This document shows positions 46,061 to 64,000 of a DNA stretch of 64,000 nt, one piece after another. Every line of letters starts with the position of its first letter. Position 1 is the stretch's first letter. Both the position numbers and the translations under genes were made by a program. The notes under the pieces are model-generated. The model ran no database searches and was not told the origin of the DNA. It saw only the letters and a program-made list of their open reading frames with translations. Source of the stretch: Candidatus Woesearchaeota archaeon (GTDB lineage: Archaea > Nanobdellota > Nanobdellia > Woesearchaeales > B29-G15); the NCBI GenBank assembly GCA_017610005.1, contig JAFCCU010000001.1:16371-80370 (forward strand), read 5' to 3'.

Positions 46061-46091
46061 AATCTCTTTAGTACTTTTGGGTGACACTTTA

Positions 46092-48509
46092 ATGGGTGCA
46101 GAAGAAGATAGGTTTGGAAGGCAGGGGGTAAACGCCATAATGAGGGGAGTAGGTGGTTCTGGCTTAAACCGGCCTGTTAACCTAGCTTTGTGGGGGATAA
46201 GCAAGATTTGTAAATTTACTCTAGAGCATCTATTTACAGACCAAAATTATCAGCTTCTTGGGAACACTAACATCGAAAATATAGTTCTTGTGGGCAGCGA
46301 TTCCTCTGAAGCTGAAGCAGATAGAAGGCATCTAATTGGGACCTTACAAACATCTGAATTTGCAACAGTTGGAGGAGTAAAAATTATTTCTACAGATTAT
46401 GGGAAATATGAAAGTGTTGCTTCTGATATGGGGGGAATTGATATTTTAGTTTTCACTCACGGCAAGCCTATTGATTCAGAAATTACAGATCCTCAGGCAG
46501 CGAGAGAAGAGAGAACAAGGGTAAATATTAAATTAATAGATGATTTCTATAAATCTCTTGGGAACCAAATGCCAGGCCATTTATTAATGGCTGCAAATCT
46601 CCCTGCTGCTCTGATGTACAGGGCTGCACTGCTTCTTGATGGCATGGAGTTAAGCCAATTTTCTGGACTTGCACATTTGGATTATTTAAGGTTAGATGCT
46701 CTTGCACGACCCTTATTAAGGCGAAAGATTGCTGAAAATCTTGCTTGGGATGAGTCACAAACCTCTGAGGATTTAGAAGATATAATGAGTTCTTTACAAG
46801 AAATACAATGGTTTAACTTAGGATACCATGGAAACTCTCGGGCAGTATTAAATGGGGTGCCTGCAATTATTGATCCAAAAAGTAATTCTAAAATAAACTT
46901 AAGGGAACATTTCAAAGTAGAATTTTCTCAAGAAGAAGTAGAGGCAATCTCCCACGCAGTTATGGAGGGAGCAAGAGCCTTGATGGAAGACTATAATGAT
47001 TCTGGGGAAAGAGCACTACTCAAGACTAATCCTGCGGGTGCAATATTATGGCACCTTCAGGCTTTGCTTAATCAAGATAGGTTTGTTAATGCTGGAATTT
47101 TCTCCATAATTGATGATACTGGAAGAGTCCTTCCATTAGCGCAACCAGCAATCTGCCATGATCTCCATATTTACAGAAGTGATTTATTTGCTGTTGCAGA
47201 TAGTGATGACCTCGCGCAATTTGAAAGTATCCAAGGAGATCTTCAACAATTAATTGATAGGCATCCAGAGGTAACCAATGGTTTTAGTAGACCCCTAATG
47301 AGAAGAGGAAACTGGAGCGGAAAAACTCCCTCAAGTGTTAGGAAACTATATGCTAGACCTGACTTGCTTCAAAAAATACTTCCAATGGCATTTAAAACTC
47401 CTCCTATTCCTTCCATTGAAAAGTTGTGCACTTCCACATTTTATTCTAATGGCCTTCATAACGGAGATTTAAAAAGTTTATTTGAAGTGACTCCCGGCAA
47501 AGACAAGCGCCCTCGTGATCCTGTTCCAATTGGTCTTAAAAGAGAAGAAATTACAATTGGCAAGAAAAGAGTTTACCTAAAAAAGGAACAGGATTCTGTA
47601 GTTTCCCTTGAAGGAGGTAGCAAACTTATTCATATCTTGACAAGAAACAATATCTCTGATCAAGAACATAAGGGGCCAAATTTTGTTTATAGAATAGCCA
47701 ATTTTGATCGTGAAACCAGAGAATTCTTAACCCCTTCTCAACCATTAATTAGAAATGGGCTTCCAATCTCAGTAGTTTCCATGGCCTTAGCACCAGATGG
47801 GACATTGTTAGTAGGTTATGATTATAAAAAAAATTTTACTGTAAGCAGTATTGTTGACGGTCAAATTGGAGAAGATATCCTTTCAGTTGAAGAAGGAATG
47901 GAATGGTTTGAATATAGAGAGAATGAGATATATCTCATCAAAGAAAATTGTCTTTATAAATATGATAGAAAAGCAGAAGTTGCTTCAATAATGCCCCCTA
48001 CATTAAAAATATATGATCCTGTAAATAGTAGATTTACCTTTGCAACAAGTCATGGTAGGGGCTTATCTCATGGAGATTCCCCACTTGTAAAGTTAGTTAA
48101 CGCGCAAGGAGAGTCAATTGGGATTTCCTCAAATAATCAAATCTTTGATTTTCATAATAGCAGCCAAGGGTTTGTCTCTGCTAGTTTGGTTCTAGCAAAT
48201 AAATTGGGAGTATATTCAGCTAGTTCAATTGGTCAATTTTTCTCTGGGATGCAAGAAGAAGGAATTGAGATGAAGACAACAAAAGCTTCATTTACAGATG
48301 TGGAGAGATTATTGGTCCAAGATTTAAAAGTTGCATATGTTCTTCAACATGCTTTTAGTGAGGGCGCATCTGTAAAAAGTGCAAATGGCGCCTTATCCCG
48401 GGTAATAAGTGCAGTATCTTTAGAGCATGTAAAACAAAAACCTTACACTATTAATGCTCAGGGCATGTCCTTTTCACAAATGATAATGGTGGGGCCTCTT
48501 GATAACTAA
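46092..48509 (+). CDS. Divergent malate/lactate-dehydrogenase-like protein fused to a beta-rich domain
   Basis: An 805-residue protein. Residues of about 27-390 follow the LDH/MDH layout: a Rossmann start (RPVNLALWGISKI), a FTHGKP strand like the family's VVITAGVP, an EERTRVN segment, AANLPA in place of VTNPVD, LDYLRLD with the family's catalytic Asp and Arg (about 197 and 200), and GYHGN with the catalytic His (246) in place of GEHGD. The glycine-rich NAD loop is lost. Residues of about 490-805 are repeated short strands (VSMALAPDGTLLVGYD) suggesting a beta-propeller. It is the first gene of the train and overlaps the phosphatase gene by 11 bp. It is probably a sensor or scaffold derived from an enzyme. 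Confidence 0.6.
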   Translation: MGAEEDRFGRQGVNAIMRGVGGSGLNRPVNLALWGISKICKFTLEHLFTDQNYQLLGNTNIENIVLVGSDSSEAEADRRHLIGTLQTSEFATVGGVKIISTDYGKYESVASDMGGIDILVFTHGKPIDSEITDPQAAREERTRVNIKLIDDFYKSLGNQMPGHLLMAANLPAALMYRAALLLDGMELSQFSGLAHLDYLRLDALARPLLRRKIAENLAWDESQTSEDLEDIMSSLQEIQWFNLGYHGNSRAVLNGVPAIIDPKSNSKINLREHFKVEFSQEEVEAISHAVMEGARALMEDYNDSGERALLKTNPAGAILWHLQALLNQDRFVNAGIFSIIDDTGRVLPLAQPAICHDLHIYRSDLFAVADSDDLAQFESIQGDLQQLIDRHPEVTNGFSRPLMRRGNWSGKTPSSVRKLYARPDLLQKILPMAFKTPPIPSIEKLCTSTFYSNGLHNGDLKSLFEVTPGKDKRPRDPVPIGLKREEITIGKKRVYLKKEQDSVVSLEGGSKLIHILTRNNISDQEHKGPNFVYRIANFDRETREFLTPSQPLIRNGLPISVVSMALAPDGTLLVGYDYKKNFTVSSIVDGQIGEDILSVEEGMEWFEYRENEIYLIKENCLYKYDRKAEVASIMPPTLKIYDPVNSRFTFATSHGRGLSHGDSPLVKLVNAQGESIGISSNNQIFDFHNSSQGFVSASLVLANKLGVYSASSIGQFFSGMQEEGIEMKTTKASFTDVERLLVQDLKVAYVLQHAFSEGASVKSANGALSRVISAVSLEHVKQKPYTINAQGMSFSQMIMVGPLDN

Positions 48510-49359
48510 ACAACTTAGAGGGATTGTACGTTCAAGAAGTTTAAAGGCTAAAAAAAAAGTAAAAAAACACATCCCTGGAGATGATAAAAAATTACCATTG
48601 CCTCACTTAGGATTGTATATTCTCGCAGATGGGATGACATCTGGTGGATTTGGATACCATGCAGCAGGAAAAGCAGTAGGTTATCTTGGGGAAGAATGTT
48701 CTGTTTTGGCAAAGGCATTAAGAGATAAAGAAGATGGTGAACCAATACTTGACCCGGAGGCTCTTTTAGGATTTGTTAGAAATGCTTTTTTAGCAGTCAA
48801 TCAAGATATTTCTGATATGGCGTACAACAGAGAATTGAAGTTTATGGGTACAACTCTTGATATTTGCATGACTTTTGAAAATAAAGCCTATTTTGCTCAT
48901 GTTGGAGATTCAAGGATATACCATTTTTCAGCTGAAGGACTTGATCAATTAACAGTTGATAACATCCCCACTCCTCCTGGTTTAAATGAGGAAGAAAGAG
49001 GATACCACGCGCTAGTTGAACATCGCTTGACTGAATATTTAGGAACTGGATCTGGAGAATTACACATTCAAACTGGAGTTATTGATATTGGGCCAGGGGA
49101 TTTAATTTTCATGGCTACTGACGGGGTAACAAATAATATTCATAAGGCTGAATTAGAAGAAATTTGTGCTTTAAACGATGTTAATTTAATGAAAAAAAGA
49201 ATTATCAAATTAGTAAAGGAACCTGGATTGATGGCATCGTGGTTACATGAAAATAAATATCCTGAAAATTCTTTAAGAGAAGTTCAAGAGAAGATGGGGC
49301 GACGAGATGATGCAACATTTATGTTAATTCAAATGATTGAGGGTAAGAAATATGGCTAA
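48499..49359 (+). CDS. PP2C-type protein Ser/Thr phosphatase
   Basis: A 286-residue PP2C/PPM phosphatase, metal dependent. Motifs are LGLYILADGM (43-46, the DG metal ligand), MGTTLDICM (117-120), AHVGDSRIYHF (133-141), DLIFMATDGV (201-210) and RRDDATFML (268-276, with Asp where Asn is usual). The N-terminus is basic, with GDD where most members have NED/NQD. It starts at TTG with GGTGGGG 4 nt upstream, overlapping the preceding stop. It overlaps the kinase gene by 8 bp, so phosphatase and kinase are made together and likely act on the same proteins. Confidence 0.88.
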   Translation: MITKQLRGIVRSRSLKAKKKVKKHIPGDDKKLPLPHLGLYILADGMTSGGFGYHAAGKAVGYLGEECSVLAKALRDKEDGEPILDPEALLGFVRNAFLAVNQDISDMAYNRELKFMGTTLDICMTFENKAYFAHVGDSRIYHFSAEGLDQLTVDNIPTPPGLNEEERGYHALVEHRLTEYLGTGSGELHIQTGVIDIGPGDLIFMATDGVTNNIHKAELEEICALNDVNLMKKRIIKLVKEPGLMASWLHENKYPENSLREVQEKMGRRDDATFMLIQMIEGKKYG

Positions 49360-50731
49360 ACCATTTGGAGTTCAAGAAAGGACTTTACAGGATAAAATTC
49401 GAAGGGATGGTAGATTTGTTCATATTAGAGATTTGAGAAATGGAGATGAACGCCCAAATCTTTTTGTGGTTCACGAACGAGACCACCCCGAGAATGAATG
49501 GGTCTTAAAAATGGCTCCAGACACTACTGATTATCATAGAATCTCGCTTGATAGGGAACTAAGTGTGCCTGTAAAATTCTTAAAAAAACATGGAAGAAAA
49601 CCAGAATATATTTTGCCTGTTTTTCCTCTTGAACCCGGGATTGCAGACCTCCCATCAATTTTAGTTATGAAAGGAATGTGTTCATATCACTATTTTCTAA
49701 AAAATTTTGAAGAGGAGTTCAAAGAAAAAAGAACTTGGGAAGTCATTCACCCACTTTTAATTCACTTGGCAAAAGGAGTAGAAGAATTGCACTCTATTGA
49801 TGTTTATCATAGAGATCTTAAGCCACGAAATAGAATTATGGTTCAGAATAGGTCGTATCCTGAAGGGAGAGTATTAACTGGTGATTGTGGCGAATTATCT
49901 TCTCATAAAAACTCGACATCTGCACATGGAACTAGTATTTGGTGGGCACTTGAAACCCATTTTGGTGACAAATTAGAGGGCCATGATTTTGTATACGATG
50001 AGAAAACCGATCTCTATCAACTTGGGCTGGAGATTTGGGTAAGTGTTTTAGTGGATCCTATTTTGCCTTGGGATGATGATAAACAAAAATACTATGAATT
50101 TAAAAGTGCAGGAAATGGAAGAAAGATGCAAAAAGCAATTGCTAATTCTGAATTTATTCCAGGAACTCCTGGATCAATTGTGGATTTGATCCAGTGGTTA
50201 ACTCAATCTGATAGAAATAAAAGACCAGATGGGCCAGATCGGGTTGTAAGGGCCTTAGAAGATAAACCCACTCCAAACCAACTACCTGGAAGATTCGAAG
50301 CTAGTTATTCCAATTTAAATAATCTTTTAGAAGAAGGTTACAAGGGAGAAGGAGAATATGGGGCCGCAAAAATTACTGATATTTTTGCAATTAGAAATGA
50401 GCTTGGAATATTGAAGGGGTACTCTCAACAGAGTGGATTAAAGGGTAACTCCGACCTTCAGGCTTTAATGAAAGAAGCTGAAAAGGCAGTGAAAGCTTTA
50501 AAGAAAAGAGATAAGGGGCGAAGGGATAAGGCTATAGATAATCTTTATGAGGAGAAAAAAAATATGAGTGACAGCGAGTTTATATCTCAACTTAACACTT
50601 ACTTTGTCCCAGAAGCAATTAAGATTTTAAATCTATCGACTGCATGGGGTTATGAACCATTAGATTTTGATGCAACGCTTGATGATCTCATTGAAGGTAA
50701 CACCACTTATGCTAGGGAGTATAGGGGTTAG
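49352..50731 (+). CDS. Hanks-type Ser/Thr protein kinase
   Basis: A 459-residue cytoplasmic kinase. The VAIK-type lysine is in WVLKMA (53), the alpha-C Glu is likely in DRELSVPVKFL, the catalytic loop is HRDLKPRN (153-160), the metal-binding motif is GDCGE (177-181, DCG for DFG), the APE-like motif is WALE, and KTDLYQLG (218-225) matches the conserved D-x-Y/W-S-L-G. A glycine-rich loop is not obvious. The last 150 residues are helical and variable. Key catalytic residues are kept, so it is probably active. ATG 49352 follows GAGGGTAA. The tandem paralogues begin 3 bp after its stop. Confidence 0.85.
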   Translation: MAKPFGVQERTLQDKIRRDGRFVHIRDLRNGDERPNLFVVHERDHPENEWVLKMAPDTTDYHRISLDRELSVPVKFLKKHGRKPEYILPVFPLEPGIADLPSILVMKGMCSYHYFLKNFEEEFKEKRTWEVIHPLLIHLAKGVEELHSIDVYHRDLKPRNRIMVQNRSYPEGRVLTGDCGELSSHKNSTSAHGTSIWWALETHFGDKLEGHDFVYDEKTDLYQLGLEIWVSVLVDPILPWDDDKQKYYEFKSAGNGRKMQKAIANSEFIPGTPGSIVDLIQWLTQSDRNKRPDGPDRVVRALEDKPTPNQLPGRFEASYSNLNNLLEEGYKGEGEYGAAKITDIFAIRNELGILKGYSQQSGLKGNSDLQALMKEAEKAVKALKKRDKGRRDKAIDNLYEEKKNMSDSEFISQLNTYFVPEAIKILNLSTAWGYEPLDFDATLDDLIEGNTTYAREYRG

Positions 50732-50734
50732 GTA

Positions 50735-51559
50735 ATGACAAGAGATGACTCCATAAGGGATAGAGTAGATTCAATTCTTAAAGTAGTTCCTGCCCTCCCG
50801 AAAGGATTGGTAAATTCTAATGGGGTAATCTTCGCCCAGGATCAAGTAAAAATTTTGCCCCCTTTTGTTAGTGTAGAAGAATTAATGGAATCATTAAGTA
50901 ACAGTCTTCCTTATGCTATGAATGATTTTTTTAGTGGTAACAGAACAATTACTGCCGTATTTGATGGAGTAAGGATTCAACATCAAGGTATAGAAGAGAG
51001 ATATTTAAGGGTTTTTAAATTGGGGGAAAGGGGGGTTGTATCCATTGAACTTGAAGAAGCCATATTAAGGTTTTTTCCATTTGTTACAATTGAACCTGAT
51101 TCGTTAAAAAATTGTGGAACTCAAGAGTATTTTAGGGCTAAAAGAATAGGTTTATCCAATGAAGATTCAACATATAAACAAATTAATATGACTGGGGGGC
51201 AGCCTAAATTTGGAAGCCTTTTAGCTACTGCAATAGATCATGGCAGGACTTTAGACGCAATTGAGTTTGATCCAAGAATGGAATTTCCTAAAAGAGATAT
51301 AGGTGGGGAAACTATCTATGTTCCATTCTGGAATATTAAATTTTGGGTTAAGGAAGTAAGTTGTCTCTCAATAGATGTTGGAAATATTGTCGGAGCACCA
51401 AGTGCTCCGATTATGGATTTTGCATGTCAAGATTTTCTTTGTAGTATATTATTTAATCCATTTGGAGAATTCGTTTCCCAATCTATTTCTCATCCAGTTT
51501 TAAGTAGATATGGCGCTTCGAAGTTGGAATCATATTCTGGAGTGGTGAGGCCAAGATGA
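50735..51559 (+). CDS. Tandem paralogue 1 of an unrecognised family
   Basis: A 274-residue protein of unknown function; no known domain recognised. It begins with the shared tag DDSIRDRVDSILKV, then the LPKGLVNSNGVI segment and VKILPPFVSVEELMESL. A variable middle holds a FFPFVTIEPDSLK strand. The shared IYVPFWNIKFWV strand (about 197-208) and the C-terminal LFNPFGEFVSQSISHPVL complete the pattern. It is most like paralogue 3: both have ..TA..(H/Y)G.T.(D/N)AIE. It starts 3 bp after the kinase stop and overlaps the next gene by 4 nt. Confidence 0.6.
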   Translation: MTRDDSIRDRVDSILKVVPALPKGLVNSNGVIFAQDQVKILPPFVSVEELMESLSNSLPYAMNDFFSGNRTITAVFDGVRIQHQGIEERYLRVFKLGERGVVSIELEEAILRFFPFVTIEPDSLKNCGTQEYFRAKRIGLSNEDSTYKQINMTGGQPKFGSLLATAIDHGRTLDAIEFDPRMEFPKRDIGGETIYVPFWNIKFWVKEVSCLSIDVGNIVGAPSAPIMDFACQDFLCSILFNPFGEFVSQSISHPVLSRYGASKLESYSGVVRPR

Positions 51560-52599
51560 CAAAAGGAGATAGTGTGAGATTAAGAATTGATGAGATTCTT
51601 GGAATAAAACCTTCTTTAGAAGACTATTTTGAAGGGATAAGGGAAGAAGGAGAGTATTATCTTTTACCAAAAGGAACTAGTGCGGTTTTTCCTAAATTAT
51701 CTGAAATTGAGAAAGCATTGTCTGATCCTAGAAAAGTATCTACTGCTTTAAAAAGCCAATTAAGGAAAAATGAATTTTTTAATGTTGCACTTTCTGAGTT
51801 TCGGCGATTAAGAAGGAAGTTTTTAGACCAATTAATTAAAGATGATGGAGAATTAGAAAGAACTGATTTGATTGCGCCAAGTTACTCCATTCTTGAGGTT
51901 ATCTTAGGGGACCGGTCAGTCACTTATCACCCATTTTCAATATCTACAGAGAAAGAGGGATTAAAAATAAAAGATTTAGTCGCAGGTCATGAATATGTTG
52001 GAACTGTTGAATCTCTTGTAGGACAATTAGCCCTTACTGATTTTCCTTTTTCACAAACAAATATTGCGATGCTTATGTCAATGGCAAATCAAGGAGGTAA
52101 ATTTTCAAATCAGGTGCAAAAAAGCACTAGTGATATATTTAGAAAACCAAATTTTGAGGGAGAAATTACTTTTGTACCCCTAATCAGCCAAGAAGTAACA
52201 ATTACTCAACAGCTACTTTCTTCCATCAGTTCCGATTATAAAAGTGATGTGGATAGATATGTAAACACTTGGGAAGAAAGGTTTGTATATACTACCCACG
52301 GGCAGGTGAGGGCTTTTGGTCTAGGAGATTCCATTGAGTTTATTCCCAACCATTCTGAGAAACAGATAAGATATGTTAGGGAGCTTGTCAAAGAAAATAT
52401 TCAAAAAATTAGATTTGCAGATTATAAGAAAGAGTGGTTAATTATTTTTAGGAGTTATGATCGGATAGGAAAAAGAAATAGTAAGAAAACAAATGCAAGG
52501 GTTCGAGAGTCTTTAGAAAACGCAAGAGGATATCAAACTAATCCCACAAATTTTAGGAAAAAGCAAAATACAAGATTAAATGTTAATTGGGAGACATGA
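51556..52599 (+). CDS. Tandem paralogue 2 (long subtype)
   Basis: A 347-residue protein of unknown function. The N-terminal tag is GDSVRLRIDEILGI. It differs from paralogue 1 by a helical insertion (FFNVALSEFRRLRRKFLDQL) followed by TDLIAPSYSILEV, features shared only with paralogue 4. The VTYHPFSISTEKEGLKIKDL strand and a TFVPLISQEVTIT version of the YVPFW strand follow. The C-terminus is basic and lacks the FNGFGEY motif, so it is the most diverged member. Its start overlaps paralogue 1 (ATGA). Confidence 0.55.
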   Translation: MTKGDSVRLRIDEILGIKPSLEDYFEGIREEGEYYLLPKGTSAVFPKLSEIEKALSDPRKVSTALKSQLRKNEFFNVALSEFRRLRRKFLDQLIKDDGELERTDLIAPSYSILEVILGDRSVTYHPFSISTEKEGLKIKDLVAGHEYVGTVESLVGQLALTDFPFSQTNIAMLMSMANQGGKFSNQVQKSTSDIFRKPNFEGEITFVPLISQEVTITQQLLSSISSDYKSDVDRYVNTWEERFVYTTHGQVRAFGLGDSIEFIPNHSEKQIRYVRELVKENIQKIRFADYKKEWLIIFRSYDRIGKRNSKKTNARVRESLENARGYQTNPTNFRKKQNTRLNVNWET

Positions 52600-52601
52600 G
52601 G

Positions 52602-53471
52602 ATGAATGAAGATTCAGTAAGAGGGAGGTTAGATTCGTTAGTTGGAACAGATTCAATTCTTCCTACTGGATTTATTAGATCTCAAGGGATAATAAGGGCG
52701 CCTCCTGGAGTAAAAATAATCCCTCCTACTGTAACTGGGGAAGAATTAGTTGAACTTTTAAAAACTCAATTGCCATATTCTTTAGAAACCACTTTTTCTA
52801 CAGGGGAGGGGTATGAGTTTGCAATGGAGGATATTATTAAAGTACCTTCCAAGGAAAAAGTAGACTATAGTGAGTTGGATCCAAAATATAAAAAGTTTTT
52901 TTCTAGAGGTATGCGTAGTATGGAAAAAACTGAATTTTATGAACCTGTTATTTCCTTTCGACCTTATCAAAGACTTAAAGAAAAGGCATTTTTAGATTTA
53001 ATTAATCAAACAAAATTTGAAGGAAAGTTATTCCCCTCCCCTTTGGATGATTCAGTTTTAAGGCATATTTCATTAGAAAAAACTCCTAATCAGTTTCCAA
53101 GATTATTAGTAACTGCTTGTGCCTATGGTGAGACTTGCAATGCAATTGAGCAAACCTCCGGTATGGTCTTTATGAAAGTACCTCCAGTGGAAGGAATGAT
53201 GGTATATGTCCCTTTCTGGGAGATACCCTGCCTCTTAACTGTTGCAACTACTATTAGAACTACAGTAGGAAATGTTTCAGTCCAAGATTCCAAGGATCAT
53301 TTAGAAATTTTACTTAGAGATTATTCTGCTAGGATTATATTTAATGGTTTTGGAGAATATACTCAAACACAAATGGAAAGTCCAGTTTTGGATATAAACA
53401 ATCCAGATAACATTAGATACTGGGAAGGTATTGTTCCTAAGGGTGATAAGGGAGTGATTCCTTTTGAGTAA
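52602..53471 (+). CDS. Tandem paralogue 3
   Basis: A 289-residue protein of unknown function. I chose ATG 52602 because it aligns the tag NEDSVRGRLDSLVG with the other members; in-frame TTG 52587 and ATG 52596 lie just upstream. It then has ILPTGFIRSQGIIRAPPGVK, IIPPTVTGEELVELL, a variable lysine-rich centre, an EPVISFRPYQRL strand, VYVPFWEIPCLL and IIFNGFGEYTQTQMESPVL. It is closest to paralogue 1. The end overlaps paralogue 4 by 8 bp. Confidence 0.6.
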   Translation: MNEDSVRGRLDSLVGTDSILPTGFIRSQGIIRAPPGVKIIPPTVTGEELVELLKTQLPYSLETTFSTGEGYEFAMEDIIKVPSKEKVDYSELDPKYKKFFSRGMRSMEKTEFYEPVISFRPYQRLKEKAFLDLINQTKFEGKLFPSPLDDSVLRHISLEKTPNQFPRLLVTACAYGETCNAIEQTSGMVFMKVPPVEGMMVYVPFWEIPCLLTVATTIRTTVGNVSVQDSKDHLEILLRDYSARIIFNGFGEYTQTQMESPVLDINNPDNIRYWEGIVPKGDKGVIPFE

Positions 53472-54534
53472 AGATGATTCAGTTAGAAAAAGAATTGATA
53501 CTCTTTTGGAAATAATTAAAGGAGATGTAGTAATTTCAGGAGGATTATTAGAGGTTATTGAAGGGAGGGCAACTGGCTTAAAAAGGCAAAGTATTGTTCG
53601 CCCCGCAGTAGATAGTTTGAAATTGAAGGAACAATTTTTAGAACGTAACATTATAAATCAAGCATTAGAAATAGCAAGAGGGAGCAGTCAATATAAAAGA
53701 GTATTAAAGCAGTTTAGGAATGAAAGGAAAAAATTAAAGGAAAATTTACTTAATGAAAAAAATGCCCCATTTAAAACAAATTTAGTTGCCCCCCAATTTT
53801 CCCTTGTGCAACCAACATTAAGAGATCCTGTTTTGGAATATCACCCTTGCATTGTAAGTTCATCAGTGGGCTTAAAAACGACGCTTCATGATTTATTTCT
53901 AGATAAATTTCTTGAAAGACAAAATATTAATCCTTCTGAAACTTTAGAAAGTATTCGAGTTGAGGGAGAATGTTCACTTATTTCGGGTGTTGTTGCATCA
54001 AGGTGGGAGAACCGTATATCCTCTACTTTTCCTGAAGATATTTTAGTTAGGGCTGCCTCAATACCTGTTGATTATGAAGAAGTGTTATGGGTGCCGTTTT
54101 ACACTTATCCTATGTTAATTCATGGAACCTTTAGTGTTAAAAATCAAGCATGGTTTGCTTATGGCGAGACATTCCAATCCCAAGATTGGCAACAGAAAAT
54201 GACTGTTTCAATCCCCGGATATTTTACTACAGATGCTATTTTTGGATCTCTTTATTATTTTTCTTTAACTGATCCTAACATAGATCCAATAGTTCCTGAT
54301 AACCCTTGGTATTCATTGAAACAAACAGGAGGATATCCCTTAATCGGACAGTATCACTTGGCATTCTGGGGTCCAAGAATGGCTGGAGAGGAGTTTACTG
54401 AAATGATCAGTCTAATGCAAGAAAAAGATCCCCAAAAAGCAGACTTACTTTTTTCATTATTCCATCAACGAGAATCATATAACCCCTTACCTGAAAATGT
54501 GCCAAATGGATTTAAGGTGATTAGAAGTGAGTGA
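53464..54534 (+). CDS. Tandem paralogue 4 (long subtype)
   Basis: A 356-residue protein of unknown function, starting at TTG inside the end of paralogue 3. The tag is SKDDSVRKRIDTLLEI. A helical stretch (RVLKQFRNERKKLKENLL) and TNLVAPQFSLVQPTL match paralogue 2. LEYHPCIVSSSVGLKTTLHD and LWVPFYTYPMLIHGTF are the shared strands. The C-terminal third is unlike the others (a longer YHLAFWGPRMAGEEF segment). It overlaps paralogue 5 by 8 bp. Confidence 0.55.
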   Translation: MSKDDSVRKRIDTLLEIIKGDVVISGGLLEVIEGRATGLKRQSIVRPAVDSLKLKEQFLERNIINQALEIARGSSQYKRVLKQFRNERKKLKENLLNEKNAPFKTNLVAPQFSLVQPTLRDPVLEYHPCIVSSSVGLKTTLHDLFLDKFLERQNINPSETLESIRVEGECSLISGVVASRWENRISSTFPEDILVRAASIPVDYEEVLWVPFYTYPMLIHGTFSVKNQAWFAYGETFQSQDWQQKMTVSIPGYFTTDAIFGSLYYFSLTDPNIDPIVPDNPWYSLKQTGGYPLIGQYHLAFWGPRMAGEEFTEMISLMQEKDPQKADLLFSLFHQRESYNPLPENVPNGFKVIRSE

Positions 54535-56139: not shown

Positions 56140-56147
56140 GGAATTTA

Positions 56148-57023
56148 ATGAATGAAGATGATTCAGTAAGGAGAAGAATTGACTCTTTATTAGATATTAG
56201 AATCTCTCATCCATTGATTGTGGGGAAATTACCACAAGGATTTAAGATAGTTAATGATCAAGTTCAAAGCCCAGAAGGAACTTCAATAATTTCTCCAACT
56301 GCGACGGTTGAAGAAATTTTAAACTTAATTAAAGTTGAACTTAAACCCCAAATCCTTTCTGGGGGGATAGATTCAGTGGGGATAAATGGAGGAGTAGTAA
56401 ATATTTCGACGAATGGATATTCTCAAGTTGTTCAAGATAGATTTACCCAAACAGTAAATATTGTTGGAGGTAATGTTAGCACAAACCCTCAGGATATTGA
56501 ATTATTAGATTTAGAACTATCTGAATTAATGTTGAAATATCATCCATTTGAAGTTCTAATATCAGAAGGAGATTTATGTATAAATGATCTATATTTGGGG
56601 AAAATTTTTAAGGGCATAAGTTTGAAGGGGGGCAATATACTAAATAGTCATTATAAGAATTTAAGTTGTGGAAGAGATATAACTCCCGGGGGAGAGTTAG
56701 AAAGACTAGCTCAGTCAATTGAATTAATAAGAAGAGCAGGTCCTACTGATGTTGCTGCACTTAGCTTAAAAACATGTTTCTTACTAATATCTGAGGGGGT
56801 TACTCGGTTAGAAGGCGCATTTTTAACTTATGTCCCTTTTTATTATATCCAAACAAGTTTATCTCTTGGAGTTTGTCCAAAAATAGGTTTAACTGTTCTT
56901 CAAGAGCTTGGTTTAAGCTCAGTGGTTTCAGACCAATCTTTAAAGCATGATATTTCTGGAACAATTATCTTTGATGGTTTTGGTCAATTTTATTCATTTA
57001 AACTTAAAAGCCCCAGGAGATAG
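56148..57023 (+). CDS. Tandem paralogue 7
   Basis: A 291-residue protein of unknown function. ATG 56148 aligns the tag NEDDSVRRRIDSLLDI with the family; ATG 56136 is in frame and would overlap paralogue 6. Then KLPQGFKIVNDQVQSPEGTS, IISPTATVEEIL, a unique Gly/Val/Asn-rich beta-like insert (GGVVNISTNGYSQVV, TVNIVGGNVST), LKYHPFEVLISEGDLCINDL, TYVPFYYIQTSL and IIFDGFGQFYSFKLKSP. It ends the paralogue array; a 110-bp gap with a hairpin follows. Confidence 0.6.
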   Translation: MNEDDSVRRRIDSLLDIRISHPLIVGKLPQGFKIVNDQVQSPEGTSIISPTATVEEILNLIKVELKPQILSGGIDSVGINGGVVNISTNGYSQVVQDRFTQTVNIVGGNVSTNPQDIELLDLELSELMLKYHPFEVLISEGDLCINDLYLGKIFKGISLKGGNILNSHYKNLSCGRDITPGGELERLAQSIELIRRAGPTDVAALSLKTCFLLISEGVTRLEGAFLTYVPFYYIQTSLSLGVCPKIGLTVLQELGLSSVVSDQSLKHDISGTIIFDGFGQFYSFKLKSPRR

Positions 57024-57057
57024 CTACCAATTTCTTATATTAATAATGTGTGAATGT

Positions 57058-57077
57058 GTTGTTGTAGCACCAACAAC
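57058..57077. promoter_or_regulatory. Hairpin in the only sizeable gap of the gene train
   Basis: GTTGTTG, a 6-nt loop, CAACAAC. It lies between paralogue 7 and the membrane protein gene, just before an ATACTAATATAC stretch that could be a second TATA box. It may be an attenuator or an RNA-processing site separating the two halves of the train. Confidence 0.35.
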
Positions 57078-57133
57078 CGTTGCCAATGCGTGAGCAGCTA
57101 ATACTAATATACTTTCTTTGCTTAAATCTTTCT

Positions 57134-57610
57134 ATGTCAATCGAAGGAATTGTTAAAAATGGAGCCACAAAGGCAGTATCTTTCCTAGAGAAATCAATTA
57201 TTAATTTCAGACCAAGAAGGGGCGAATGGAAAAAAGATGCATTAAAGGGAGTGGCCGCAGCAGCCTTGGGAGTTTTTCTTAATTATAAAGGTGGAACTGT
57301 TGGTGATATCGCTTCAGCATTACCTTGGGCTTATGCAGCAATAAAAACATATCATGTTCACAAAAATATGGGGAGAACCCCATTAAGGGGCGTCAAAAGG
57401 AAGCTTAATGATATTGTATTAAAGAATTATGGCGAGTACAGGGCTAATCATAACACTTGGAGAGCAAATGCTGGCAAGGCAATAATTGTGGCAGGAGGCG
57501 CGGTTTTGTTAAATATTTATGGAGGTGGTATCAGTGATATAGCTTCTGTTTTGCCTTGGATTTATAGCGGAACAAAAGCATATCACGCAGTTGCCGATTT
57601 AAAAAAATGA
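57134..57610 (+). CDS. Small membrane protein with internal duplication
   Basis: A 158-residue protein of unknown function. Two halves repeat each other: GVAAAALGVFLNYKGGTVGD with IASALPWAYAAIKTYH in the first, and AIIVAGGAVLLNIYGGGISD with IASVLPWIYSGTKAYH in the second. Each half has two hydrophobic helices around a Gly-rich turn, so four membrane segments are likely. Basic linkers (RPRRGEWKKDALK, PLRGVKRKL) suggest positive-inside loops. ATG 57134 is chosen because the 18 upstream residues precede any conserved feature. It overlaps the next gene by 4 nt. It could be the membrane base of the assembly encoded by the train. Confidence 0.55.
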   Translation: MSIEGIVKNGATKAVSFLEKSIINFRPRRGEWKKDALKGVAAAALGVFLNYKGGTVGDIASALPWAYAAIKTYHVHKNMGRTPLRGVKRKLNDIVLKNYGEYRANHNTWRANAGKAIIVAGGAVLLNIYGGGISDIASVLPWIYSGTKAYHAVADLKK

Positions 57611-57996
57611 AAGATCAATTTTCCCCCCAGTCATTAATTGGAATTAGAAATAATGAAAGCATTATTGAGGGAGTTAATAGACAACTCTCAGTAATCCTTT
57701 CTCCTAATCCAGTTGTTAAATTAAAATATATATTAGGACTAACCAGCAAACAAAATGAAATAACTAGGTTGTTTTTTAGACTCGAAACATTTCATGGAGG
57801 GCTTGATAAAATCCGTGAAAAGTATATGGGATTAGTTAAGATAAAATTAGAGGATCCAGAAAATCTAGATATTTCAAAATCTGAGATGATTATGTATGAA
57901 CGATTAATAATGTTTGCAGATCAAATGCTTGAGCATTCTAATCAAGCAATAGTAAAAGTACAATCAAGACTAGCAATGGAAGCAGATCAAGAATAA
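57607..57996 (+). CDS. Helical protein of unknown function
   Basis: A 129-residue, mainly helical protein with no recognised domain. Helices include EGVNRQLSVILS, KQNEITRLFFRLETFH and EMIMYERLIMFADQMLEHSN. Its start overlaps the membrane protein stop (ATGA), which points to coupled translation. The next gene begins 13 bp downstream after a GGAGG site. Confidence 0.45.
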   Translation: MKDQFSPQSLIGIRNNESIIEGVNRQLSVILSPNPVVKLKYILGLTSKQNEITRLFFRLETFHGGLDKIREKYMGLVKIKLEDPENLDISKSEMIMYERLIMFADQMLEHSNQAIVKVQSRLAMEADQE

Positions 57997-58009
57997 CGGA
58001 GGCAATAAA

Positions 58010-58696
58010 ATGATAGATGAAAAAGTACAAGATGATGATCATGGCCCAATATACGAACAAGGAAGAGTGTTGTCTGCAAGAATGGACTTGCATCGTGGTG
58101 GAGATGGAGAAGGTCTAAAGTTACATGATGGGAGTTATTTGACTCTTCCAAAAGCCATTAGTGGAAAAAGTTCCATTACAGATAGGTTTTTAGAAAAATT
58201 AATCGGTCCTGATAGGATGATAAAGAGACAAAAAGCTGGACTTGAAAAAGGGGTTGAAGCCCTTTATGATTTTCGCGATCACCTTGTTGAACTTACAGAA
58301 AATTATGCCACGGATTTGGAGAATGATAGAACTCAATTAACTATCTTAAGAGGAAATACTCATGAAATGGAACAGGAAGCAAGCTTTTTGAGAGGTTATG
58401 AAACTGCTTTAAGTTCCGGGGATGGAGAACAATTTTTAGCTCAAAACCGGGGGCATGTCTTGGACTTTTCAAGTAAGATTGATGGGATGGGACTTCAACA
58501 AATCAAGAGTTATAGGCTAAGGTTAGAAGGTCAACTTAAAAAGCAATTTGCTTTAATCTCTGTTGAAAATATAAGAGTTTTGGGACTAGAAGATACATTA
58601 AAACAAGCTAAGGGAGATATTGCGGTTTTAGATCAAGTCCTTGATCACACACATGAAATGCAAGTTAACTTGGCAGAGTTAGTTTATCAAAACTAA
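58010..58696 (+). CDS. Coiled-coil protein of unknown function
   Basis: A 228-residue protein. An acidic N-terminus is followed by a short strand segment (GLKLHDGSYLTLPKAISG) and then long helices with coiled-coil character (about 75-225; EKGVEALYDFRDHLVELTEN, YRLRLEGQLKKQFALISVEN). No catalytic motif is seen. A GGAGG ribosome binding site lies just upstream. It may be a structural or adaptor subunit. Confidence 0.5.
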   Translation: MIDEKVQDDDHGPIYEQGRVLSARMDLHRGGDGEGLKLHDGSYLTLPKAISGKSSITDRFLEKLIGPDRMIKRQKAGLEKGVEALYDFRDHLVELTENYATDLENDRTQLTILRGNTHEMEQEASFLRGYETALSSGDGEQFLAQNRGHVLDFSSKIDGMGLQQIKSYRLRLEGQLKKQFALISVENIRVLGLEDTLKQAKGDIAVLDQVLDHTHEMQVNLAELVYQN

Positions 58697-58749
58697 ATTT
58701 TCAGACTAGTTAAAATTAATTAATGTAGCGATAGCTACGGAGGAAAAAA

Positions 58750-59895
58750 ATGACAGATGGAACAAACATTGGAACAATCGTCAAACAAGATGAAGAGATA
58801 AGAATCGGAGAAGAACCTATATTTGAGGAAGATAGAGAAACCTTGGATGTTAAAGTCCAGGAAAGGTTGTCAAAAGATAAGGGCACTGACCCTTCTAAAA
58901 GGGTGAGAGAAAAAAACGACAAGGCTTCACAAACTTATAGTGATAATGTCAAAGAAGCTCAAGCAGCAACAATTGGTTCTTTAAGAAAAGGATTATATTT
59001 TGCTTTAAATGCAGTAGGTGTTGATACAATAAAAATAGAAACAAAGAGAAACAACCGCCAAAACCTAAGAAAAGAAAGTGAACTTCAAGGCCTTAAAGAA
59101 GAACTTTGGGAAGCATATGAAGGCCAGGTTAAAGAAAATACTAATCTTGCTGGTAGAGAAGACCAATTGAGAGAAGAGAGGGCAAGTCATAAAGAGGCGG
59201 CAAGATTTCATGGCCACTTAAAAGCTGCAAGTTTTAAATATGCAGGGATAATCAAGGGGGGAAAAACTCCTGAAGAGGCAATGGATGCAGTTTCTCAAGA
59301 GTATGGTCAAAAAATTGGAAATGAACTAAAAGGAAAGAGTATCCAAGAGGCCAGATTTGTTGCAAAGTTTGAAGCATTTAGGGGAGAGTCTGATGCCAAT
59401 GATGCATTATACTCTGCTAATAGAGAATTAAATGGGCTATACTTAGCAATGGATTTTGGTGAAGTTCATGGCGCAGTTTTACATGAAATGATTACAAGAA
59501 TAACTGAAGTTGCTGCAGGCATTAGTGATTACACTCAACCTGCTGTTTCAAAAGATTTGCAAGGCTTAATTAATAATTGTCTAAGTGAAGAAACTGATTC
59601 AAGAGAAGCTATTGCAAGAAATAAAGCCTTATTAGAGAAAACAACCGGATATAAGGCAGATTATCTTGGAACAGTATTAAAGACCCCCAGAGTAGCAATC
59701 GCTCAAGAAGTTATTGCTCGAAGTAACCCTAAATTAGGTGGTCTTATGAAAGTTCTTGTAGCTAGTAATGATGGACATGTTGACTCAAGACAAGGTCTTG
59801 ATGATGAGATGGACACATACATTGAACAAAGAGATCAATCAGAAATGAGTGGAAATCCAGTTGACATATTGACTAGATATGCTCCACAGAACTGA
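58750..59895 (+). CDS. Large helical protein of unknown function
   Basis: A 381-residue, charged, predominantly helical protein. The N-terminal 60 residues are acidic and probably disordered, followed by coiled-coil (about 105-165, ESELQGLKEELWEAYEGQ) and an all-helical C-terminal part (about 170-340). I recognise no family. GGAGG at 58739-58743 is an unusually strong ribosome binding site for this window and could mean high expression, as expected for a structural subunit. Confidence 0.5.
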   Translation: MTDGTNIGTIVKQDEEIRIGEEPIFEEDRETLDVKVQERLSKDKGTDPSKRVREKNDKASQTYSDNVKEAQAATIGSLRKGLYFALNAVGVDTIKIETKRNNRQNLRKESELQGLKEELWEAYEGQVKENTNLAGREDQLREERASHKEAARFHGHLKAASFKYAGIIKGGKTPEEAMDAVSQEYGQKIGNELKGKSIQEARFVAKFEAFRGESDANDALYSANRELNGLYLAMDFGEVHGAVLHEMITRITEVAAGISDYTQPAVSKDLQGLINNCLSEETDSREAIARNKALLEKTTGYKADYLGTVLKTPRVAIAQEVIARSNPKLGGLMKVLVASNDGHVDSRQGLDDEMDTYIEQRDQSEMSGNPVDILTRYAPQN

Positions 59896-59903
59896 GGAAC
59901 GAA

Positions 59904-61445
59904 ATGAATTCAATAGTTATTTCAGATAGGGCGATTACCTCTAAAAGAAGAGATCTTCGCCCAATTCTGAGTAAGGGTTTGTATGGAATTAAAGAGAACT
60001 TAGAAAGTGAGTCTGGTTTGTTTGATATAGTTGTAAACTTTGTTGCAACTTATCAAACAGTAGCAGAAGTATTAAACGAACATTACTCTAAGAATGATAA
60101 GTTTGTCAATTCTTATGCTACATTTATTGCTGCCGAAGCTTGTTTAGAAGATTTAGTGGAACAAGATTTAACTCATGTTGAAAATGGGCAAAATCTATTT
60201 TCAGATAGGGAAGTAGATTTTGGGGAAGGAAGTACAGCAATGAGACTTTTTATGGTAAATTCCTTAGGCCAAGTACTTAGTTCAAATAATAAAAAACCTG
60301 GAGCAAATACACTATTTGATTATTTCAGTTGGTTAAGTTTAGCGGCAAGAGACACATCTGACTCACCTGAAATTGAAGCGTTGGTAAGGGGAGCTTATGC
60401 GTCTAAGATAACTTTAGAAGGCCCACCTAAACATGAGTTTTCAGGTTATGAAAGAAAAGATAACCTGACTATCCCAGAAAAAAAGGATATGTCCCAAGGA
60501 TGGGACCATGTAGGAGGGTATGAAGAAGCAAAGGTTTGGCTTAAAAGATGGACAAGTAGGCTAAAAAGACCAAAAGAATATTATGAATCAAGGGGAGGGA
60601 TTGCAAAACATGTCCCTTCAGCTTTTTTACTTGTTGGACCTCCAGGGACAGGAAAAACTACCATGGCAAATTTGTTTGCCAGAATGAGTGGGCTTGATTT
60701 TTATGAGATCTCACTTGGAGAAATAGCGTCAACATATAAAGATGGAACGGCTTTAGCATTGCAAAGAAGAATAGATGATGCTACAAGGGCTGTAAAAAAA
60801 GGATATAAAAAAGGATCTGTAATTTTTATTGATGAAATTGAGGTAGTTGTCCCTCAAAGAAGTTCTCAAAACCAAGAATCAGGTAAGAATGTAAATATTC
60901 TAAACCTTGCAATGAGTGGTAAAAATCAGGTTCCAGGTGTAATATATGTTGCAGCAACAAATCATCCTGAAATGATGGATTGGTCTCAAATACGAAGTGG
61001 TAGATTTGGATATGTGATTAACTTAGGAATTCCAAATGATGAAACTTTGGGAAAAGTCTATGAAAGTTTAATTGGAAGAATTAATACAGAAGTTACAGAA
61101 TACTTGGCAATTGATCCAAGTGTATCAATTGCAGATCTTGTGAAGGCTTCCTCCAATGAACCTAAATTAAAGAAATTAGCACCAGGCCATCAGGTGCTCT
61201 TAAGAGAGGGGGTTTTGTTTGGAGAAAAACTTGATGCATATACTGAAGTTGCTTCGCAAATGGCTACTGGTGAAAGGTTACCTTTTCACCAAATGACTAC
61301 TGGTGCAGATGTAGGTGAAATCTTATCTTATGTTTTCTCGGAAAAATGTGATATGGTCGAAAAGACTGGAGGAATTTGGTCTCCTATTACAACAAAAGAA
61401 ATTATTGAAGGTATTCAATTGTATAAAACAGCGGGGAAGAAATGA
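59904..61445 (+). CDS. Classical AAA ATPase
   Basis: A 513-residue protein. Residues 1-190 are a helical domain with no match I recognise. The AAA module starts at DMSQGWDHVGGYEEAK (about 195-210). Walker A is GPPGTGKT (245-252), Walker B SVIFIDEIE (305-313), sensor 1 AATN (350-353), and the second region of homology ends RSGRFGYVINLGIPN with two candidate arginine fingers (364, 367). The substrate-loop region is YKDGTALALQ. It should form a hexamer that remodels or unfolds proteins, like Vps4/FtsH/p97 AAA domains; no protease domain is present. Its stop overlaps the next ATPase gene (ATGA). The paralogues are plausible clients. Confidence 0.85.
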   Translation: MNSIVISDRAITSKRRDLRPILSKGLYGIKENLESESGLFDIVVNFVATYQTVAEVLNEHYSKNDKFVNSYATFIAAEACLEDLVEQDLTHVENGQNLFSDREVDFGEGSTAMRLFMVNSLGQVLSSNNKKPGANTLFDYFSWLSLAARDTSDSPEIEALVRGAYASKITLEGPPKHEFSGYERKDNLTIPEKKDMSQGWDHVGGYEEAKVWLKRWTSRLKRPKEYYESRGGIAKHVPSAFLLVGPPGTGKTTMANLFARMSGLDFYEISLGEIASTYKDGTALALQRRIDDATRAVKKGYKKGSVIFIDEIEVVVPQRSSQNQESGKNVNILNLAMSGKNQVPGVIYVAATNHPEMMDWSQIRSGRFGYVINLGIPNDETLGKVYESLIGRINTEVTEYLAIDPSVSIADLVKASSNEPKLKKLAPGHQVLLREGVLFGEKLDAYTEVASQMATGERLPFHQMTTGADVGEILSYVFSEKCDMVEKTGGIWSPITTKEIIEGIQLYKTAGKK

Positions 61446-63331
61446 GGCATGATCTAACTGCGGAAGGGAGAACTACCTGGGCAAAGCGTTACTTAACTGA
61501 CAGGGCAGATTTGGTTACTTTTGCTAATGATGTTGAAGATGTTTATCAGGCAATCTTAACTTCAAGAACGGTTGCCGAATTAGATGAGATAAGACAAGAA
61601 CTTCATCCATATTTTATAATGAGAGACGCATGGAACTTTAATCCAACTCCTCAGGCATTCCACTTGAAAAGGCTTTTGGGTGTTGTAGATAAGGTGGATA
61701 CATTGTCAAAACAGATGGCTGGACTATTGGGTGTTAAGCTACAAGAATTGCCAAAGTCAGCAGATTTAAACCCAAATAGATATAACCTTTTATGGGAAGT
61801 TGCTGGAGAATTAGGAATTGATTTAAATTGTGAATTTCCAAAAGAAAGACCACTTGATGAAAAATTAAAAGAGCTAAGATCTCTTGAGGATTTACCATTA
61901 GAAGAGCTTTTGGAAGAGCCCCCATTATTTGGCGACCCTTCAGTTTTAGAAGAAGAGGTTATGCGCCCTAGTCCTAAATCTTCAATAGGAAAATACATGC
62001 AAGAACTCTCTTCTGGACACGTAGATGTTACAAAAAGAACTCCTCAAGGAAAAAAAATCTTAAGAAGACCAGAAGTTACAAAATCAAGTTTTCAAGCAGT
62101 TCTTGAGTTTTTTAGTAGTGAAGGATTAATTGGTGAAGAAAGATTGGCTTTAGTTGAAACTCTTGCAGCAATTCATCAGATTCCTTTAGGGGTTGAAAGT
62201 TTAAGTGGCTCCGGGAAAAGTAAGTCAGTTGACATTTTAATGAAAATGCTTCCAGAATCAGCAGTATATGTTGTAGGGTTGCAATCTCCTAAAGCAATGC
62301 ATTATGATAGTATTAATGTTAATAAAACTAAAATAATATATATCCCTGAGTTACAAAAAGCAATGAATTCTAGAGACCCATTTATAATCGATGTTGTGAA
62401 AGATCTTTTTGAAAAAAAAGATAGTGATTTTACTTCTTTAGATCCAAGCAGGAAGGTTAGAAAAAGAACAATCAAGGGAGATAAGGGAATAATTTTTACT
62501 TTGGCTGTAGAAAATGCTTACAAGTATGATACAGAAACTGCAAGAAGATTTATGAGAGAATATACTGACCCTTCTAAGGAACAAACAAAGAGAGTTATTG
62601 CTGGTAAAACTTTAATGAAAAGGCATCCAGTTTTGGCAGGAGAATTTGCAATGGACCCAACAACTAGAACAGAACTTTTATCACATGTAGCTGCTTGTCT
62701 AGAAATTAGCGACAAGAAATATGAGATTCCATTTGCGGATTATCTCCAAGCATTTATCCCCTTAACGTTGAAGGCTAGAAGTTATGATGATTATTATTTT
62801 GGTATGATCGAGGCAGTTAGCCATTTTCATTATTCAGACCGTTTGTCATCAGAAGGAATTACATATGTAGAACTTTCAGATGCATATGCAGTACACGAAC
62901 TTGCTTGGCATCAGTTTTGTAAATCACTTTTAGGAATTCCTTTAATCGGCGAACAAGTCTTAGAATTATTAGACCCCGAAGAAATTGATAAAAATTCTTT
63001 TTCAAACATCTTTGAAGGAGTTAGAGCTCAGATTCCAACAATAAGAAAGGATGTTGTCCAAAAGACAATAGATAGTCTAGAAAGGGCAAATTTGATTGAA
63101 GGAGTTGATGGATATGGGGCTCCACATTATAGACAAATTGGAGATTTGAGTGTTTTTAATCAACAAATTGATTGGCAAGAAGCATGGGACGAAGGTTATG
63201 CTTTTATGGAGCAATATTGCCCAAATAAAGCTAAAGAATGGGCTACAAGACAAATTAAAGATGGAGTAGTTGTTGGATACCATCCATTGACAGGAGAGGT
63301 GAAAGAACTTGCGAAATCAAATATTTCATAG
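61442..63331 (+). CDS. P-loop ATPase resembling primase/helicase-type proteins of mobile elements
   Basis: A 629-residue protein. The P-loop is SLSGSGKSKS (253-262), followed by SPKAMHYDS and a Walker B-like strand KTKIIYIPELQ (296-305). Then comes GDKGIIFTLAVENAY (sensor-like) and ETARRFMREYTDPSKEQT (365-382). This order matches, in my reading, P-loop modules of CHC2-primase-like/helicase proteins on integrative elements (GPSGSGKS, then IEELEG, then a t-R-l..vDeS-x-EQT motif). The N-terminal 200 residues are helical. The C-terminus has a winged-helix-like RKDVVQKTIDSLERANLI. It could act on DNA or be repurposed. The next gene starts inside its end. Confidence 0.6.
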   Translation: MRHDLTAEGRTTWAKRYLTDRADLVTFANDVEDVYQAILTSRTVAELDEIRQELHPYFIMRDAWNFNPTPQAFHLKRLLGVVDKVDTLSKQMAGLLGVKLQELPKSADLNPNRYNLLWEVAGELGIDLNCEFPKERPLDEKLKELRSLEDLPLEELLEEPPLFGDPSVLEEEVMRPSPKSSIGKYMQELSSGHVDVTKRTPQGKKILRRPEVTKSSFQAVLEFFSSEGLIGEERLALVETLAAIHQIPLGVESLSGSGKSKSVDILMKMLPESAVYVVGLQSPKAMHYDSINVNKTKIIYIPELQKAMNSRDPFIIDVVKDLFEKKDSDFTSLDPSRKVRKRTIKGDKGIIFTLAVENAYKYDTETARRFMREYTDPSKEQTKRVIAGKTLMKRHPVLAGEFAMDPTTRTELLSHVAACLEISDKKYEIPFADYLQAFIPLTLKARSYDDYYFGMIEAVSHFHYSDRLSSEGITYVELSDAYAVHELAWHQFCKSLLGIPLIGEQVLELLDPEEIDKNSFSNIFEGVRAQIPTIRKDVVQKTIDSLERANLIEGVDGYGAPHYRQIGDLSVFNQQIDWQEAWDEGYAFMEQYCPNKAKEWATRQIKDGVVVGYHPLTGEVKELAKSNIS

Positions 63332-64000
63332 AGGAAAAACCTTACTTGGGATTTTGCAATCTGAGCAATGGGTTTTAGATGCACCTGTGTTAAGGGCGGC
63401 CGTGTCAGTTTCTCAATTCAACGCCCTTGTAGGAATTAGTACCTCAAAAGACCCAATTGGCACCTTAGTTGATATTATTGGAAAAATAAGAAATGCAGAA
63501 GAAATTTTACCAGATTATGAATCTCTAAGCAATGTACAAGACTTCTGGGAAAGAGATGAAAAAAATGCAAGATATATTCGTGCTGGATTAGATACATATG
63601 AAGATGCTGTTGAAAATTTGCCCTTAATTACAAAACAAGTTGGAATAGAAATAGAAAGTTTAGCAAGAAGAATAGAGAAAAATTATGTAGAAGAGATAAC
63701 AGAAGGAATAAGACCTTCTCAAGCAATATCCTTGTATCAGGAATTAAGAGCTAAATTACCCGATTGGAGTAGCCCAAATGAAAGAATAGATTTCTACCTT
63801 AAATCAGAAGAAGCAATTGAAGATATCCAATCACAACTTTTGGCATTAGGGAGAGACCAATCTATTTTCCCTGAAACACTTGCAAAAGGAGACCATGTAA
63901 AATTACTTGTTAAAAGAATTGAAAAATTAGTTTCAGAAGGCAACCCTGATTGGAGCGAGAGTTATTTTGCAAGAGAATTAAGAGATGTACAAGCCTACCA
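63309..64000 (+). CDS. Helical protein, truncated by the window edge
   Basis: The frame is open from TTG 63309 to the last base (230 codons seen). The start is supported by GAGGTGA (63296-63302) 6 nt upstream; it lies inside the end of the preceding gene, as is usual in this train. The sequence is charged and helical. Three segments look related: ILPDYESLSNVQDFWERDEK, LPDWSSPNERIDFYLKSEE and NPDWSESYFARELRDV, suggesting a repeat of about 75-100 residues with a conserved (P)D-(W/Y)-x-S-x(5-6)-(F/Y) pattern. Function unknown. Confidence 0.6.
   Translation, partial: MRNQIFHRGKTLLGILQSEQWVLDAPVLRAAVSVSQFNALVGISTSKDPIGTLVDIIGKIRNAEEILPDYESLSNVQDFWERDEKNARYIRAGLDTYEDAVENLPLITKQVGIEIESLARRIEKNYVEEITEGIRPSQAISLYQELRAKLPDWSSPNERIDFYLKSEEAIEDIQSQLLALGRDQSIFPETLAKGDHVKLLVKRIEKLVSEGNPDWSESYFARELRDVQAY

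Follow-up and report, generated by a model that had tools for sequence, protein, structure and literature searches.

A woesearchaeal gene train with two AAA+ ATPases, a kinase and a phosphatase, and a short shared N-terminus as a candidate docking address

The DNA analyzed here (the window) is a stretch of 64,000 nucleotides from the 1.58 Mb genome, in 62 contigs, of a Candidatus Woesearchaeota archaeon (the genome is labelled G000 and the window is G000:C20:16371-80370). Its last third holds a train of genes for a malate dehydrogenase (MDH)-like protein, a PP2C-type phosphatase, a Ser/Thr kinase, two AAA+ ATPases (the second one is called ATP2) and a series of proteins with a common short N-terminus, the tag, which may be a docking address. 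The train starts at 46092 and has 17 genes; all 17 are on the forward strand with intergenic gaps from -23 to +56 bases, as a preliminary description made from the letters of the window had it. The final gene stops at window position 65234, 1.2 kb beyond the window (L005:3605 in the L005 coordinates, which run past the window end). Downstream, we found a TrmB-type regulator on the other strand and then a second train, 10 genes long (L005:4802-17962; gaps from -23 to +121 bases). Several start codons (TTG or GTG) are uncertain. The promoter proposed earlier for the first train is backed by the promoter-like element TTTATAA-N11-TTAGTACTTT at 46050..46077 on the forward strand, another exact copy of which lies ahead of the second train (L005:4682-4709). 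Since these are the only 2 exact copies in the assembled genome, one ahead of each train, the element is taken as a putative promoter and operator sequence common to both; with 2 mismatches allowed, 6 further sites appeared, which is the chance level (9 for the backward control). The second train, the common element and the tag had been missed in the preliminary description.

Seven tagged paralogues are encoded in a row on the forward strand, at 50735..51559 (with the tag DDSIRDRVDSIL), 51556..52599, 52602..53471, 53464..54534, 54527..55363, 55360..56139 and 56148..57023. That they belong to one family, as had been claimed, was borne out, with an eighth member added outside the window (L005:6049-7035); the paralogues are 17-30% identical to the first row of their alignment. 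We read them as lineage-specific clients and not as part of the core, a distinction that had not been drawn before. A database search for the family listed no outside homologue; the search had a limited reach, since no more than 2 of the 7 paralogues themselves came up in it.

The tag reads mostly S-V-R-x-R-[LI]-D-D-L-L-R and is present on 17 proteins of G000, including proteins of the second train: the eight paralogues, six proteins of a beta-helix family, two large ones that have a membrane segment, and one of 114 residues. Its core of 11 residues begins at residue 4 to 10, with Arg3 present in 17/17 carriers and Asp7 in 16/17. A tag profile searched against the whole G000 genome at E <= 10 found precisely these 17 proteins and nothing else, and none of its matches in 7 related genomes went below E 0.41. 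The bodies of the carriers made 9 BLASTP clusters, which profile merging reduced to 5 kinds (the 8 paralogues, the 6 beta-helix proteins and 3 singletons); across these kinds, 58 of the 93 tagged pairs were still at or above the pair threshold given below. In the predicted structure of the third paralogue (pLDDT, the predicted local distance difference test, 71; pTM, the predicted template modeling score, 0.71), residues 4-13 form a helix, with pLDDT <50 in the tag region. Among the six second-train proteins scanned with Pfam, one passed Beta_helix PF13229 (E 1.6e-10) and one fell just under the cut-off.

Where tag residues are identical, their synonymous codons differ in 350 of 811 comparisons (43%, with 56% expected from body usage if the codons were independent), and in 228 of 527 comparisons made between body classes. 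As judged from these codons, then, selection acts on the tag at the level of the peptide. An ordinary paralogue operon, whose common N-terminus would be a functionless relic of a recent duplication of gene starts, could draw on the existence of the seven plus one paralogues and of the six related beta-helix proteins, as well as on one nearly identical tag pair in genome G187. However, the codon differences, the presence of the tag on five body kinds and the finding that other genomes have common N-termini with other sequences all speak against such a relic; we disfavor it and consider it very improbable.

The search for shared N-termini in relatives covered 18 trains, 8 around ATP2, PP2C or kinase genes and 10 around MDH-like genes; pairs were counted if their bodies were non-homologous by BLASTP at E 0.01, with a threshold N-terminal score of 38. 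We observed that 121 of 724 pairs reached the threshold, compared to 1.9 pairs on average and 8 at most in 200 control draws of internal windows, and to 13 of 5580 pairs for genes outside those trains. G000 contributed 84 pairs and G129 contributed 21, while the other 16 trains gave 16 of 359. Pairs were seen in the trains of G000 (17 genes), G129 (8 genes in 5 BLASTP clusters), G126, G100 and G203 (3 genes each), G250 (2 genes, plus 2 weaker ones by eye) and G187 (2 genes), besides two less certain cases discussed below. The tags have a different sequence in each genome. For six tag sets, the average helical hydrophobic moments ranked between the 78th and the 98th percentile of those of random stretches.

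The tags, which are short and for the most part predicted to be amphipathic, could be self-association helices, so that clients bind each other without a dedicated receptor; the AAA+ pair would then work on the filament or cluster that they form. The 17 carriers encoded in one region of G000 would be enough for an assembly on their own, while a core of about 11 residues is short for a stable coiled coil; we regard this explanation as unlikely, though it is the first one to set beside docking to a receptor.

With respect to topology, a simple scale predicted a hydrophobic segment in 16 of 44 tagged proteins, and in 13 of the 16 the tag side was the more positive one. The positive-inside rule states that the more positive side faces the cytosol, so the tag of these clients is probably cytosolic. 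The earlier term "membrane-associated" is thus supported in part. All four tagged proteins of G242 have a hydrophobic segment, followed in three of them by Thr/Pro-rich stretches (by eye), and two are members of the beta-helix family by profile. The 520-residue client of this genome matched NosD with 28.6 bits (cut-off 23.6) and stayed under the cut-off for Chlam_PMP (19.9 bits, cut-off 20.6). Among the bodies from other genomes are a beta-helix of GXGXG-like type (E 0.0023, under the cut-off) and TPR repeats seen by eye. The G242 client and the second-train proteins that reach or approach the Beta_helix cut-off have beta-helix repeats in common with NosD and the chlamydial Pmp proteins; unlike in those, no autotransporter part was seen, and several members of the same profile family had no Pfam match.

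On the same scale, none of the six tagged G000 proteins of the beta-helix family has a hydrophobic segment, whereas the same-family proteins of G242 do, and the train proteins of G258 begin instead with signal-peptide-like sequences (L131, 5687-11728; by eye). Both observations would suit a tag that is an export signal, similar to a leader peptide, with the AAA+ ATPases unfolding tagged proteins and pushing them out by a new secretion route. On the other hand, a hydrophobic segment is already present in 16 of the 44 tagged proteins, and no channel-like gene was seen in the core, though no systematic search for one was made; we find export quite unlikely. Three of the G258 proteins also have an EGKEVWQL- or EGKDVWQL-type motif behind the signal-like sequence, perhaps an exported shared N-terminal element.

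Among the proteins of the first train, the one encoded first (46092..48509, forward strand) has an MDH/LDH-like N-terminal domain (LDH, lactate dehydrogenase) and, behind it, a long C-terminal part that looks like a beta-propeller by eye. Its single sequence matched no Pfam family and reached malate dehydrogenase only at E 0.6. A profile from five genomes (A6), however, had malate or 2-hydroxyacid dehydrogenases as best PDB matches (E 2.1e-7), with N, D, R and H columns that are invariant in 5/5 sequences and aligned to MDH, as expected for the malate/lactate dehydrogenase superfamily; we take these columns to be the catalytic Asn, Asp-x-x-Arg and His of these enzymes. The description "LDH/MDH-derived" is therefore upheld by the profile and not by the single sequence. 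In the best three cases the match runs from profile positions 172-185 on, so it does not take in the nucleotide-binding half.

The phosphatase and the kinase named earlier were both recovered above the Pfam cut-offs. The PP2C-type phosphatase (48499..49359, forward strand; PF13672, 35.5 bits, cut-off 24, E 9.6e-9) has Asp columns D27, D43, D200, D207 and D269, invariant in 5/5 sequences and presumably metal-binding. The kinase (49352..50731, forward strand; PF00069, 44.6 bits, cut-off 31.7, E 1.6e-11) has HRDLKPRN and, in place of DFG, DCG (both by eye). We also observed that the N-terminus of the G001 kinase (L122), SLEDRIKKDGRF, is similar to that of the window kinase, TLQDKIRRDGRF, and to the start of the next gene; this resemblance is possibly related to the tags.

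The first ATPase (59904..61445, forward strand; PF00004, 88.5 bits, cut-off 21.2, E 6.5e-25) confirms the AAA protein of the preliminary description. Its AAA domain aligned best, among solved structures in PDB, with VCP-like ATPase, AFG2 and Cdc48 (best E 4.5e-36); unlike the VCP/Cdc48-type ATPases, the protein has just one AAA domain, and its N-terminal part, about 195 residues long, is private to it. ATP2 (61442..63331, forward strand), previously described as a second P-loop ATPase, is supported by its predicted structure as an AAA+ protein with an MCM / Mg-chelatase / RavA-type core. It differs from these proteins in its low identity (8-13%), in TM-scores of about 0.15-0.34 normalized to the whole query chain and in a private N-terminal helical region. 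Membership in the MCM family itself was rejected: ATP2 had no Pfam MCM or chelatase match, and only its AAA+ core matches by fold. The protein database gives PF27228 for ATP2, which the Pfam copy used did not report. Probable coiled-coil proteins (by eye) flank the pair on the forward strand: CC1 (58750..59895) ahead of the AAA gene, and CC2, of 641 residues (63309 to window position 65234), behind ATP2.

A single-sequence search detected ATP2 in 7 of 60 relatives, and a profile search in 28 of 352 genomes of the order, G000 included. In a phylum-wide sample of 371 genomes it was present in 16, all 16 of them in this order. Beyond the order, ATP2 turned up in a metagenome-assembled genome (MAG) assigned to Aenigmatarchaeota (L055) and on a contig assigned to Yonathbacteria (L057). 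The latter, a core locus of archaeal appearance that includes a TrmB-type gene, comes from a MAG listed under a bacterium of the Candidate Phyla Radiation (CPR) and is probably misbinned. These two and the 28 genomes make up 30 loci, many of them on short contigs. The AAA gene is immediately ahead of ATP2 in 22/30 loci; a further gene precedes the AAA gene in 20/30, and one follows ATP2 on the same strand in 23/30. At the place of CC1 these 20 loci have a gene for 302-459 residues, a counterpart by position, and homology to CC2 was seen only with G001. For the AAA protein, the single-sequence search of the 60 relatives gave a near-full-length match only in G001, and one over residues 41-390 in G046. 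Within the fetched regions, TrmB-type genes were found in 16/30 loci and PP2C genes in 9/30. Because the neighborhood is conserved, the doubt raised beforehand, that its gene order might recur in no other genome, is removed.

The MDH-like profile matched 20 of the 352 genomes, 11/28 with ATP2 compared to 9/324 without it; when the five profile-building genomes were left out, the co-occurrence was 6/23 versus 9/324 (p 1.5e-4). By eye, AAA-like genes lie near the MDH-like gene in G250 (L129, 2646-5899) and G258 (L131, 279-1736). These two genomes have no ATP2 match, so the core may be present there in a divergent form. In G008 (L049:15816-19333, L050), genes for a MoxR-like ATPase and a VWA-like protein lie between AAA and ATP2, and one for a barrel-like exported protein ends the train (all by eye).

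The patchy distribution, including the absence of ATP2 from the same-genus genome G002 (97% complete), is what a defense or conflict system would show, in which phage sensing and kinase signaling lead to effector proteins. Kinase and AAA parts that match generic defense models, and clients for which the limited search found no outside homologue, point the same way. Still, in the 10 of 27 train proteins scanned with PADLOC-DB 2023, generic kinase and AAA matches were the only ones, and in the 23 of 27 scanned with Pfam no nuclease or toxin family was above its cut-off. We therefore consider defense improbable.

As in the preliminary description, the combination of kinase, phosphatase and two ATPases fits none of the named systems that we compared. 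TerY-P triads have a VWA protein beside PP2C and kinase; here the latter two are present, and VWA had no Pfam match in the 23 scanned proteins, nor did FN3, DUF58 or transglutaminase. According to the parts of the source consulted, encapsulation peptides of bacterial microcompartments (BMCs) are short amphipathic end helices on unrelated proteins that bind a groove between shell subunits (PMC11157265), and the addressing of unrelated proteins to one assembly by a short end helix is what we propose here. Common short N-termini are present; a helix is predicted for most tag sets and not for that of G126. In contrast to microcompartments, the clients include membrane and beta-helix proteins, and a kinase, a phosphatase and two AAA+ ATPases are at hand. 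The BMC shell domain (PF00936), detected in E. coli and Synechococcus elongatus as positive controls, was not found in 7/7 tagged genomes (84-99% complete), and the encapsulin HK97-type shell protein (PF04454) was found in 0/7, with its control positive in 3/14.

The bifidobacterial PFNA operon, as far as the excerpts of its description go, is a one-strand operon with a Ser/Thr kinase and a MoxR-family AAA+ ATPase phosphorylated by that kinase; the partners are DUF58, transglutaminase and an FN3 surface protein, some of the species also have a PP2C gene, the large surface protein is secreted and presumed to meet the host, and the divergence is lineage-specific (PMC8430577). A Ser/Thr kinase in a one-strand train is common to both loci. 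However, the window AAA is VCP-like, the fold of ATP2 is near MCM, chelatase and RavA, and a MoxR-like gene was seen, by eye, only in G008; the same excerpts mention no common N-terminal tag (PMC8430577). With no shells found in 7/7 genomes and none of the three PFNA partner families found in the 23 scanned proteins, neither the encapsulation-peptide systems nor the PFNA operon houses this locus.

The reading that we favor, at about an even chance, is that a conserved AAA+/kinase/phosphatase set handles lineage-specific clients by means of the short N-terminal tag, which would be a cytosolic docking address. The set would consist of the two AAA+ ATPases, the probable coiled-coil proteins, the MDH-like protein, the phosphatase and the kinase. 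The tag, a predicted amphipathic helix, would bind a common groove on this platform, which would lie at the membrane, with the AAA N-domain, CC1, CC2 and the C-terminal part of the kinase as candidate receptors; because every tag would bind one common groove, clients with unrelated bodies would all be brought to the same place. A part of the clients would span the membrane, their tag on the inner side and a stalk or beta-helix body exposed on the outer one, and others would be soluble. The kinase and the phosphatase would switch the assembly on and off, perhaps on metabolite or NAD state as read by the MDH-like protein, and loading, remodeling or disassembly of the complex would fall to the two AAA+ rings. 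Divergence of the tag in step with its receptor would give each lineage its own address.

Several observations weigh against docking by a general tag. In nine of the 18 trains, no N-terminal pair was seen (G266, G008, G204, G116, G130, G178, G258, G313 and G053), so the tag is either non-universal or below the reach of the pair test. Of the four pairs in the G242 train (6 genes listed), two are doubtful and only two are trusted; the single pair of G209 (2 genes) is doubtful as well. The train limits were chosen after the N-termini had been read, and four loci (G214, G197, G001 and G306) were excluded from the pair test; G214 gave one pair, at score 39, in a separate comparison, and this pair is counted among the 13 of the control. 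BLASTP clusters overcount the body kinds, as shown for G000, the genome for which profile merging was done. In the G126 tags a strand-like periodicity beats the helix, and in G242 the two are nearly equal (the stretches were picked by eye). The tag Ser of G000 is missing from other tags, so phosphorylation of the tag is no general rule. A membrane segment was not predicted for 28 of the 44 tagged proteins. The folds nearest to ATP2 are replicative helicases, compatible with a DNA role too. Finally, HMMER leave-one-out tests recovered 0/7 MDH-like proteins and 3/9 kinases; hhalign, run uncontrolled, recovered 5/8 MDH-like N-domains at E <=4.1e-5 and that of G126 at 0.0026, and did not recover those of G008 and G100.

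The remaining genes of the first train, all on the forward strand, encode a probable membrane protein with an uncertain start and two similar hydrophobic stretches (57080..57610), a small protein of no family (57607..57996) and a probable coiled-coil protein (by eye) of no family (58010..58696). The first of these had been called a four-helix membrane protein, which does not hold, as the simple scale gives one clear and one weak segment. The first train is flanked by a TrmB-family regulator gene on the reverse strand (44641..45387; PF01978, 68.1 bits, cut-off 25.6). The TrmB-type regulator between the trains is at L005:3606-4328, opposite to the first train (PF01978, 63.1 bits), and a third TrmB-like gene, split in two open reading frames, follows the second train (L005:18221-18951; by eye). 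Between the middle regulator and the second train lies a gene for a small hydrophobic protein (L005:4430-4640). Elsewhere in the window, we noted a reading frame of 3572 residues with repeated extracellular-type sequence (28727-39445), two further very large ones (4096-10002 and 9999-15791), and a ThyX-like match (PF02511, E 3.8e-10) within an unusually long protein of 586 residues (42367-44127).

How DPANN archaea build structures for meeting other cells is, to our knowledge, largely an open question. We suggest, tentatively and as a possibility with more against it than for it, that the locus encodes a machine of a new kind from woesearchaeal members of the DPANN archaea. A dual-AAA+ platform under phospho-control would gather and display the clients, surface beta-helix proteins among them, by a lineage-exclusive lock-and-key address code, and would plausibly be a host-contact apparatus. 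It belongs to this suggestion, and is just as tentative, that the address peptide was re-invented, or diverged beyond recognition, in each lineage. The set is large and conserved, and its internal code is readable; since the tag marks which proteins belong together, an uncharacterized machine becomes testable gene by gene. Genome-specific tags would supply orthogonal docking peptides, and N-termini that look like those of paralogues can mean address, not ancestry.

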